NCBI RefSeq assembly: GCF_000503895.1
Contig: NC_022997.1
Location: forward strand, 1,756,501-1,820,500
DNA: 64,000 bases
DNA from: Hyphomicrobium nitrativorans NL23
GTDB taxonomy: Bacteria > Pseudomonadota > Alphaproteobacteria > Rhizobiales > Hyphomicrobiaceae
Direction: 5' to 3'
The notes below the pieces were generated by a model. That model searched no databases. It was not told where the DNA came from and saw only the letters and a program-made list of their open reading frames with translations. This document shows, piece by piece, positions 6,090 to 9,331 of this stretch. The translations under genes and the position numbers were made by a program. Every line of letters begins with the position of its first letter. The stretch's first letter is position 1.

Positions 6090-6134
6090 GGCTTGCGTCG
6101 CGTTTTGCGTGATAAGGCCACAAACCAACCGAAG

Positions 6135-7700
6135 ATGAGGACCATGACCGACCTCCGTTCCCCCTTCCGCGGCCTGGCCGATCTTCGCGCGTCGTTTTCG
6201 GCGTTTGTCGTTCCGCTCATGGCCGCGTTCGCGCTGATGGTGCTTCTCGTTCCGTTCGCGGCGGTCGCTCAAGTGGACGATGCCTATCGTCCGCCGGCCG
6301 GAGCGGGCGGTGGCGGGAGCTTCGAGCAGCAGCTTCGGCAAGGCGGGTTCGACGTGCCCCCGCCTCCGCAGGGCGATTTTCAGGGGCCGCCGGGGCCGCC
6401 GCCGCAGGGCGGCATGGATGGCGGCGGCGGGCAGTACGGCGCGGACGGCTTCTCGGCCGAGGGCGGCCTTCGCGGCACGCAGCGGCAGGGTACCGTTGCG
6501 CCGATCCCGATTGCCATTCCGACGTTCGTCGGCGACGATCCGGGGCTTGCCGCGGATGTGGCGCACGTGGTGATGGCCGACCTCGAACGGACGGGCCTGT
6601 TCCAGCCGCTGGATCAGGCCTCGTTCCTTGAAAATATTCGTGATGTCAATGCGTTGCCGCGCTTTCCGGATTGGCGGCAGATCGGCGCGGAAGCGCTCAC
6701 GGTGGGCCGCGTCACGCGTGGTGACGATGGCCGTCTCAGCGCCGAATTCCGGCTGTGGGATGTCGCGACCGGCAAGCAGCTCGCCGGGCAGCGGTTCACG
6801 GTCGGCGGACAGAACTGGCGGCGGCTCGCGCATCTCGTGGCCGACCAGGTCTACGAGCGGTTGACGGGCGAAGTCGGCTACTTCGACACACGTGTCGTGT
6901 TCGTCGACGAGACGGGCTCGCGCGAGAAGCGCGTCAAGCGGCTCGCGATCATGGATCAGGACGGCGAGAACGTGCGCCTGCTTACGCAGGGGCAGGAGCT
7001 GGTGCTGACGCCGCGCTTCAATCCGGCGGCGAACGAGATTGCGTTCATGGCCTACACCAAGGACCAGCCGCAGGTCTTTCTCATGAACCTCGAAACCGGA
7101 AAGCGCGAGATGGTGGGCGAGTTTCCGGGGATGACATTCGCGCCGCGGTTTTCACCCGACGGGCAGCGCGTGGTGATGAGCCTGCAGAGCGGAAGCGATT
7201 CCAACATTTTCGAAATGGATTTGAGGAGCCGCCAGCCGCGCCAGCTCACGGGGGCCGGTTCGCTGGATACGAGCCCGTCCTACGCGCCCGACGGGCGGCA
7301 GATCGTGTTCGAATCGGATCGCGAGGGGACGCAGCAGATCTACGTGATGAATTCCGACGGCTCGAACGCGCGCCGCATCAGCATGGGGCAGGGGCGCTAT
7401 TCGACGCCGGTCTGGTCTCCGCGCGGCGACTATATCGCCTTCACGAAGCTGCTTGCGGGCCGATTCCTGATCGGCGTGATGCGGCCCGACGGGTCGGGCG
7501 AGCGTATTCTGACCGAGGGGTACCATAACGAAGGGCCGACCTGGGCGCCCAACGGCCGCGTGCTCATGTTCTTCCGTGAAGGGCGGGGCGACGGGGCCGG
7601 TCCGCGAATCTATTCGGTCGATCTCACGGGGTATAACGAGCGAGTCGTGAAGACGCCTTCATTCGCGTCGGATCCGGCTTGGTCATCGCTCCTGAATTGA
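6135..7700 (+). CDS. tolB: Tol-Pal system periplasmic beta-propeller TolB, with Gly/Pro-rich insert
   Basis: Periplasmic partner of Pal and TolA, 521 aa from the ATG at 6135 (ATG 6144 and TTG 6093 are alternatives). A signal peptide ends near FAAVAQ. Then comes an unusual low-complexity stretch of about 65 residues rich in Gly, Pro, Gln and aromatic residues before the canonical TolB N-domain starts at [13 protein letters not shown]. The C-terminal half is a PD40-type propeller with repeated [21 protein letters not shown] and [10 protein letters not shown] blades. The family is usually about 430 residues, so the extra length is mainly this linker and the long signal region. Confidence 0.95.
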
Positions 7701-7971
7701 GCCAGAGTTTAACGGCCAATTAACCAGGCATTGTTATTGTTTCGTGTCGGCGCGCATGTAATGCGGCGTTGAGAATTGGCTTTTCGATTCAGAGGGTTAT
7801 CTGTTCCCCCTGAAGGGCGGATATTGCTTTGCGAAGCCCAATGATCGGCGTGGCATTTTCGCATCAACAGGGGTGGAAAACAGTGTCGCTCATCCCTCTG
7901 TTCTTGAACAAATCATGCTGGGCCAGTACCCAAATATTCGGCTCGTTGCCGAAAGCATCAGGAGATAAACC

Positions 7972-8106
7972 ATGCAGGGTGTGAAGGGGCTGATTGTTAT
8001 GTCGGCTGCCGTTGTCGCTGTTGCGCTCGGTGCGTGCCGTCGTGAGGAAGCAGTGCCGTTGAAGCTCGGCGCTGAGGTTCCGACTGCCACGGAAGTGGCT
8101 CGCTAA
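7972..8106 (+). CDS. small lipoprotein A (44 aa), tandem pair
   Basis: A 44-codon ORF starting at ATG 7972 behind AGGAG (7960-7964, spacing 7). The translation is a signal peptide with a clear lipobox (ALGAC) followed by a mature peptide of only 23 residues beginning C-R-R-E-E and containing VPLKLG. Its central 22 residues are identical to those of the next gene, 42 bp downstream. Both sit between tolB and pal. The lipobox and strong ribosome-binding site argue that it is real. No characterised family is recognised. It may be an outer-membrane-anchored partner or regulator of Tol-Pal; that is inference from location only. Confidence 0.8.
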   Translation: MQGVKGLIVMSAAVVAVALGACRREEAVPLKLGAEVPTATEVAR

Positions 8107-8147
8107 CGTCCGAAACGACTATTGGGACACACACAGGAGATACTACT

Positions 8148-8270
8148 ATGAAGGGCGCTATCGTTCTCACTGCTGCCGTTGTGGCTGTTGCCCTCGGCGC
8201 TTGCCGTCGTGAAGAGGCTGTGCCTCTGAAGCTCGGCGTTGACGCTCCGGCAGTGACGGAAGTCCGCTAA
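8148..8270 (+). CDS. small lipoprotein B (40 aa), tandem pair
   Basis: Second copy of the mini-lipoprotein: 40 aa from ATG 8148, with AGGAGA at 8135-8140 matching the leader of the first copy. Signal peptide and lipobox ALGAC are identical; the mature part is 21 residues and differs only in the last dozen (GVDAPAVTEVR against GAEVPTATEVAR). The codons encoding the identical core use different synonymous bases in several places, so the duplication is not very recent and the protein sequence appears under selection. A strong terminator follows at 8319. Confidence 0.8.
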   Translation: MKGAIVLTAAVVAVALGACRREEAVPLKLGVDAPAVTEVR

Positions 8271-8318: not shown

Positions 8319-8360
8319 AAAGCTGTCGTAGCTTCGGCTGCGGCAGCTTTTCTTATTTTG
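8319..8360 (+). terminator. rho-independent terminator after the mini-lipoproteins
   Basis: A 14-bp stem (8319-8332 with 8337-8350, two G-T pairs) closed by a C(TTCG)G tetraloop and followed by TCTTATTTT. It ends the transcript carrying the two small lipoproteins and isolates them from pal. Confidence 0.92.
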
Positions 8361-8825: not shown

Positions 8826-9331
8826 ATGGCGCTGGTTTTGCGAGCCTCGCACATTGCAGGTGCTGTGCTCGTCGTGTTCGCGGCCGTAGCGGGCGGCTGC
8901 GCCAACAACCAAAACGATCCTTCGGCCCAGCTCGGACCGGACGGCCGGGGCCGGTGACGCCGGGTACGCAGCGCGATTTCAGCGTCAACGTCGGCGATCT
9001 CGTCTACTTCTCGTCCGACAGCTCGGATCTGACGCCCGAGGCACAGGCCACGCTGCAAAAGCAGTCGCGGTGGCTCGCGCAGTATCCGCAGTACACCATC
9101 ACCGTCGAAGGCCATGCCGACGAGCGCGGCACGCGGGAATATAACATCGCACTCGGTGCGCGGCGTGCGGCTTCGGTGCGCAACTACCTGGCGCAGAATG
9201 GCGTGCAGGCCAATCGCGTGCGCACGATCTCCTACGGCAAGGAGCGGCCCGTCGCGGTGTGTAACGATATTTCGTGCTGGTCGCAGAACCGCCGCGCTCA
9301 GACCGTGCTCAATACGCGCGTCGCATCGTAG
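8826..9331 (+). CDS. pal: peptidoglycan-associated lipoprotein Pal, apparent 1-nt frameshift
   Basis: Pal anchors the outer membrane to peptidoglycan and binds TolA and TolB. The ATG at 8826 begins a lipoprotein signal peptide with lipobox VAGGC and linker ANNQNDPSAQLGPDG. That frame then meets TGA at 8955. The OmpA_C domain continues one base earlier in another frame from VTPGTQRDFSVNVGDLVYF through TVEGHADERGTREYNIALG to ISCWSQNRRAQTVL. Adding one G to the G4 run at 8947-8950 joins the halves smoothly (DGRGPVTPG). The break is therefore a homopolymer sequencing error, a true frameshift mutation or, less likely, programmed slippage. The GTG at 8954 alone would yield an unexported 125-aa domain. 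Confidence 0.88.

Follow-up and report, generated by a model that had tools for sequence, protein, structure and literature searches.

Tiny tandem lipoprotein genes of the tolB–pal gap in Hyphomicrobium and related families

Two small lipoprotein genes in the tolB–pal gap

Two tiny lipoprotein genes lie in tandem between tolB and pal in the window, by which we mean the whole stretch of 64,000 nucleotides of Hyphomicrobium nitrativorans NL23 DNA that was analyzed. The features of this region, with their coordinates in the window and their strand, are as follows:

6093..7700, +, tolB, the upstream neighbor (TIGR02800, 431 bits)
7875..7881, +, upstream GGAAAAC box, invariant in a 7-genome alignment
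7903..7932, +, promoter-like element with conserved spacing: TTGAAC (7904–7909), a 17-base spacer and TACCCA (7927–7932)
7938..7952, +, suggested hairpin directly 5′ of the first ribosome-binding site, with a 5 bp stem and a 5-base loop
7960..7965, +, Shine-Dalgarno sequence AGGAGA of gene 1, ahead of its ATG
7972..8106, +, first of the lipoprotein genes (copy 1): 44 aa, signal 1–21, lipobox ALGA|C, predicted mature part of 23 aa
8135..8140, +, Shine-Dalgarno sequence AGGAGA of gene 2, ahead of its ATG
8148..8270, +, second of the lipoprotein genes (copy 2): 40 aa, signal 1–18, lipobox ALGA|C, predicted mature part of 22 aa
8319..8350, +, intrinsic terminator-like hairpin 3′ of both genes, with 14 pairs and a T-rich tail
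8826..9331, +, pal, the downstream neighbor (TIGR02802, 147 bits, on 8954–9331)

An earlier note on this DNA had described two ORFs of 44 and 40 codons, each with an AGGAGA site, a signal peptide and an ALGAC lipobox, lying between tolB and pal and closed by a terminator, and we found each of these elements where it had been placed. Both proteins carry the hydrophobic signal and lipobox by which bacterial lipoproteins are recognized. They have the 22-residue block AAVVAVALGACRREEAVPLKLG exactly in common and end in the similar short tails TEVAR and TEVR, as had also been described, and the gap between the two copies is about 40 bases in the window. Among the 146 copies from the listed named loci (see below) and the window, AGGAG was present within 18 bases ahead of the start in 137. 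ORFs of 120–132 nt are within reach of common gene callers, so both genes may be annotated as hypothetical proteins.

Among 7 congeners, dN/dS was 0.10 for copy 1 and 0.14 for copy 2 (about 0.10–0.15 in the genus), whereas both remaining forward frames gave values above 2. For the pair in the window, dN/dS was 0.16 over 35 codons, far from the value near 1 expected of unconstrained copies, and their 12-codon core displayed five synonymous and no non-synonymous differences. The reading of the pair as paralogous lipoproteins under protein-level selection, which the earlier note had put forward, is supported by this low dN/dS and by the conservation and synteny seen in relatives. Both ORFs are genuine conserved genes, and the earlier observation is confirmed.

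In the 7-genome alignment, little conservation was seen right after tolB, followed by about 120 strongly conserved bases ahead of gene 1. In a scan of the 79 listed loci, GGAAAA and CTTGA were both found in 62, with GGAAAA 28 bases ahead of CTTGA in 59 of these, and the distance from CTTGA to a TACC-type box was 24 bases in 64 of 66 such loci, while CTTGA[TA] was absent in 12 of the 79. The geometry of the element at 7903–7932 makes it a putative promoter; a sigma-70 scan called no promoter at this position, and an EcfG-type promoter was considered as a reading of the GGAAAAC box. Searching for the upstream pattern across the genome gave four exact matches, including the locus itself, compared with three for a reversed control, so that no sharing of the module with other genes is visible. 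By eye, similar GGAAAAC and CTTGA boxes were present in another family of the order (L077–L081).

Of 37 distinct rows, 37, 36, and 35 had a standard pair at the respective three inner positions of the hairpin at 7938–7952, but its covariation was no better than that of shuffled alignments (38 to 454 of 500 reached the observed values), so that a structure is suggested and not more; it may possibly act as a 5′ stabilizer of the mRNA. A terminator scan returned four such sites in 1401 bases, compared with 1.4 expected, of which the hairpin at 8319–8350 was the longest, and a similar stem was visible by eye at this place in all seven aligned genomes. The lipoprotein pair apparently forms a transcription unit of its own. 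In the downstream neighbor pal, the ATG frame with the lipobox stops near 8957 and the OmpA domain goes on in another frame, while the pal frame is continuous in the six other loci compared. This interruption is either a real break, which would be surprising, or a sequencing error.

Distribution among relatives and comparison with known families

A search of 60 genomes, with copy 2 as the query and a threshold of E ≤ 1, gave matches in 45, the window's own genome included. Homologous ORFs are present in related genomes: relatives at E < 1e-4 were found in 35 of the 36 genomes among them that belong to the Hyphomicrobiaceae, the exception being a genome that is 73% complete. At the level of the order, a profile of 54 rows, in whose alignment the lipobox A and C are invariant, matched 50 of 297 genomes at E ≤ 0.01 and 42 of 297 at E < 1e-6, across 15 families. 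At the level of the class, 3 of 190 genomes matched, namely the window's own and two in which just the signal part was covered. We rejected these latter two, which lie outside the order, as family members because they span profile positions 1–21 (the signal) only; one of them looked LptM-like by eye.

We also scanned named genomes, which yielded at least 80 loci. These loci were found through the lipoprotein match itself, so that they test the place of the genes and not their frequency; they include pairs of contigs from one assembly (L114/L124, L150/L172, and L126/L174), and many coincide with contigs of the family and order scans, so the samples overlap. Among the matches listed, the lipoprotein genes lay between tolB and pal in all 66 named loci that hold both genes, and 14 contigs hold just one of the two. 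Two copies were present in 56 named loci, one in 17, and three in 5, while none was recovered in 2, where the match sits at the end of a contig; some of the 17 single-copy loci are likewise cut by contig ends. Both flanking genes were found in 14 of 20 further loci, with a lipoprotein gene between them in 14 of 14, one flanking gene only was found in 3, and the other 3 (L205–L207) hold diverged relatives at a different place in the genome. Three tandem copies, with one core per genome, were observed in some Hyphomicrobium (L043, L139, L140, L151, L152, and L167).

Relatives away from tolB and pal were also seen at L038, L055, and L056, and L041 is a short contig with neither gene. The relatives at L038 (3020–3190, − strand) and L055 (2894–3028, + strand) belong to another genus, and we recognized no common neighbor for them. 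For one genus group, four of four genomes examined have a diverged relative (L056, L205, L206, and L207) with a TonB/TolA-like gene no more than 3 kb away. The TonB_C score was 31.2 bits at L056, over the cut-off of 24.6, and 23.0 bits, just below it, at L207, with L205 and L206 linked by similarity; two of the four have a convergent neighbor, and all four are probably one locus by descent. Given the single-copy loci (17 of the 80 listed, some of them contig-cut) and the off-locus relatives, neither two copies nor the tol-pal place is required everywhere.

As a control, TolB was searched for in 30 genomes that had given no match at E ≤ 0.01 or, in the case of G046 and G062, weak ones. Loci were obtained from 28, and pal was found in 24 of these. 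A separate small lipoprotein ORF in the tolB–pal gap was present in none of the 24 control loci; in 23 of them, the one ORF on the forward strand that has both a lipobox and a ribosome-binding-like site continues into pal, and the remaining locus (L190) has no such ORF.

Both proteins scored below every Pfam and NCBIfam cut-off (best NCBIfam score 15.7 bits, compared with a cut-off of 50), and Rfam gave one match, far below threshold. With no match in the plasmid search and a best E of 0.17 in PHROGs, we rejected a known plasmid or phage family. Short PDB matches, to designed repeat proteins and to a sugar-binding protein, reached E 0.0044 at best and were set aside as probably due to chance. 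Short lipoproteins of the TrbK and entericidin type have a similar size and a lipobox. TrbK (TIGR04359, TrbK_RP4) was nonetheless rejected at 12.2 and 12.9 bits against a cut-off of 23, the matches falling on the signal region, and the entericidin family was not among the Pfam matches.

Lpp (PF04728) is likewise a small lipoprotein of outer-membrane type; it is more than twice as long as the tandem lipoproteins, whose mature part is non-helical in a model (see below) and whose last residue in the window is Arg. We therefore rejected Lpp membership on the lack of a Pfam match, the C-terminal Arg of the window copies and the non-helical model. Across the genome, a single contig of 3,653,837 bases, the best Lpp match scored 14.9 bits and stayed below the cut-off of 29.1.

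According to a published study, LptM is a tiny lipoprotein whose conserved membrane-proximal segment docks on the outer-membrane LPS translocon (PMC10567701). By analogy, the window proteins would resemble LptM (YifL; PF13627) as tiny lipoproteins with a conserved short docking segment, but they have another motif, another place and tandem copies, and the PF13627 motif is matched by neither, which excludes membership. An LptM-like lipoprotein ORF is present elsewhere in the genome (L227, at G000:C1:473210; 23.6 bits, below the cut-off of 27.3), presumably flanked by argH and lysA, so the tandem lipoproteins are not this genome's LptM. BamF (DUF3035) is described in another paper as confined to Alphaproteobacteria and 17.5 kDa in size after processing (PMC3359395). 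BamF and the BamC N-terminus appear to share with the window proteins the character of lineage-specific lipoproteins with a conserved membrane-proximal motif; BamF membership was rejected because DUF3035 is unmatched and the window proteins have just 40–44 aa. Our working model is that the tandem lipoproteins would work like LptM or the N-terminus of BamC/BamF, through a lipid anchor and a short docking motif, without being members of either family.

The mature cores of the two copies evolve in lockstep

The mature core follows the pattern CRRE...P[LM]KLG, or more generally C-R-[RK]-E-x(2-5)-P-[LM]-K-[LF]-G. We compared the copies in 59 of 62 multi-copy loci, three having been dropped as duplicates or for want of the ACR anchor. 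Identity of the core (Cys to KLG) was 0.95 between the copies of one genome, compared with 0.57–0.60 between genomes, and the core was identical between copies in 38 of the 59 loci. The 16 residues before the Cys displayed no such excess (0.70 within, compared with 0.64–0.75 between genomes), and the signal peptides keep their copy-1 and copy-2 types across genera, except at L145 and L147, where the two proteins are identical, signals included.

A quick tree was built from the TolB sequences of 75 of the 79 listed loci, with Hyphomicrobium sp. LHD-15 and H. zavarzinii as the rows nearest to the window. On it, the residue ahead of the core Pro underwent at least 15 changes in copy 1 and at least 18 in copy 2, and yet it was equal between copies in 52 of 60 two-copy loci. 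Independent evolution simulated from a common root with 16.5 changes gave a mean of 16.9 equal loci and a maximum of 35 in 400 runs, compared with the 52 seen, and at a slower rate (8.1 changes, which is too slow for the data) 52 was reached in 0.5% of runs. The length of the core, of which there are 12- and 13-residue types, changed just three to four times on this tree. With one or two well-supported pairs, a sign test on independent pairs from the tree was without power. Taken as sequence comparisons, these results show that the mature cores of both copies evolve in lockstep within each genome.

Matching cores could also have been made by recurrent gene conversion between the tandem copies, in which case a shared partner would not be implied. 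The closeness of the copies in the window fits this idea, as do the few synonymous core differences in some genomes (1 of 11 at L171; 2 of 12 at L106–L108) and the two loci with fully identical proteins. However, in the variable, co-varying stretch of the core the same codon was used in 0.440 of 193 equal residues, compared with 0.453 by chance (simulated 95% range 0.383–0.523), so this stretch bears no sign of recent conversion; L096 shows 11 synonymous differences among 12 core codons for equal residues, and the signal peptides stay copy-specific across genera. In the invariant part of the core, the same codon was used in 0.644 of 472 equal residues, compared with 0.536 expected, and the synonymous difference over the whole core was 0.415, compared with 0.488 expected; old or short conversion, or a site-wise codon preference, is possibly behind the codon excess of the invariant part. 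Gene conversion as the cause of the lockstep is thus disfavored, and we consider it quite improbable. Lockstep cores without a trace of conversion in the variable stretch instead led us to infer a docking site shared by both copies.

A proposed shared partner in the envelope

In E. coli, the Lol rule sorts lipoproteins between the membranes according to whether residue +2 is Asp or another residue. This residue was Arg, and never Asp, in all 146 copies from the listed named loci and the window, which by the E. coli rule suggests the outer membrane, a plausible placement for both lipoproteins. The earlier suggestion that they are LolA cargo would fit any outer-membrane lipoprotein and explains nothing specific. 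A structural model of a relative's copy 1 consisted of a single helix over the signal (residues 2–23) with no structure beyond, and mean pLDDT was 70, 58, and 53 for residues 21–30, 31–40, and 41–44. After cleavage, the predicted product would be a lipid tail bearing a mostly unstructured peptide of 22–23 residues. We propose that the core would serve as a short linear motif through which both copies dock at a common site on a single envelope partner, on the inner side of the outer membrane; the surface of the partner would drift between genera and both peptides would follow, while the copy-specific signals and tails would maintain either two doses or two forms that differ slightly. The best explanation, to which we give somewhat better than even chances, is that these are tiny lipoproteins, likely of the outer membrane, that both dock on one envelope partner.

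As to the class of this partner, a machine linked to Tol-Pal or to contact between outer membrane and peptidoglycan comes first, a preference that we hold only tentatively, and a barrel-assembly, LPS or porin complex would be nearly as likely. Synteny points to Tol-Pal. In distance matrices from 42 of the 79 listed loci, which provide a weak test, partial correlations of divergence with that of the core were 0.26 for TolQ, 0.11 for TolB, 0.10 for CpoB, 0.08 for TolR, and −0.13 for Pal. Pal is thus not favored by this test, and even its highest value, that of TolQ, is small.

The genes might instead encode bulk structural lipoproteins, very abundant stand-ins for Braun's lipoprotein whose short charged peptides touch peptidoglycan or each other. 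Such a role would fit the promoter-like element and the terminator-like hairpin of the unit, its strong ribosome-binding sites, its two to three tandem copies and the absence of Lpp above cut-off, and codon usage bears on it in both directions. The third base was T in 39% of lipoprotein codons, compared with 11% in TolB of the same loci, and was higher in 77 of 77 listed loci, with no rise in A-ending codons (7.8%, compared with 8.3% in TolB; above TolB in 30 of the 77). The log-odds towards ribosomal-protein-region codons, the direction being set by 28 ORFs of that region and 55 window ORFs, were high at 0.14 and 0.25, values reached by 1 and 0 of 377 gene pieces. The CAI was nevertheless low at 0.46 and 0.50 (window genes have a 5% quantile of 0.48 and a median of 0.61) and EF-Tu has just 14% T, so the bias is not a plain expression bias; codon choice in these genes is unusual and conserved, and is no proof of high expression. 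Moreover, 130 of the 146 copies from the listed named loci and the window end in Arg (the others in His, 7; Gln, 4; Lys, 4; and Glu, 1), whereas an Lpp-type link needs Lys, and lockstep of a short core suggests a specific site rather than bulk. On balance we regard a bulk role as rather unlikely. A regulatory RNA or leader as the conserved unit, with the ORFs incidental to it, would account for the conserved bases ahead of gene 1 in the 7 congeners, but the in-frame dN/dS set against that of the other frames, the kept lipobox, the lack of an Rfam match near threshold and a hairpin without covariation support leave this reading extremely improbable; dN/dS, Rfam and covariation rule it out as the main reading, and the unit could still have a dual function as RNA and protein.

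The earlier note had proposed regulators of Pal, and direct modulators of TolB or Pal that tune Tol-Pal cycling are an alternative to docking on a shared site of another envelope partner. Their location beside pal is upheld, with tandem-type genes between tolB and pal wherever both flanks are present, and the off-locus relative near a TonB/TolA-like gene in all four genomes of one genus group is in keeping with this idea, although these cases are probably a single locus. Against a regulatory role stand the apparently separate transcription unit, with its promoter-like element and terminator-like hairpin, and the position of Pal as the lowest value in the weak test of co-divergence. We consider direct modulation of TolB or Pal unlikely.

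Returning to docking on one shared partner, its broader form is that tiny tandem lipoproteins may be a standard envelope component of the Hyphomicrobiaceae and several related families, with two to three copies co-adapting as motif ligands of one outer-membrane machine and perhaps linking Tol-Pal with the assembly of the outer membrane or with growth by budding; we put this forward with a little less than even confidence. Hyphomicrobium grows by budding. A description of such tandem lipoprotein genes was not found among the titles and opening lines of abstracts of openly licensed PMC literature. Brucella and related Rhizobiales lack Lpp, according to a review (PMC10787603). Together with budding growth, this bears on how the outer membrane of Hyphomicrobium is held and molded. 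The genes described here add an envelope protein family to the tol-pal locus of Hyphomicrobium and its kin, and co-varying tandem paralogues without a trace of gene conversion would be an unusual case of co-adaptation to a shared site. The roughly 60 loci with matched peptide pairs amount to a natural record of mutagenesis, which may be compared with candidate partners for a binding surface.
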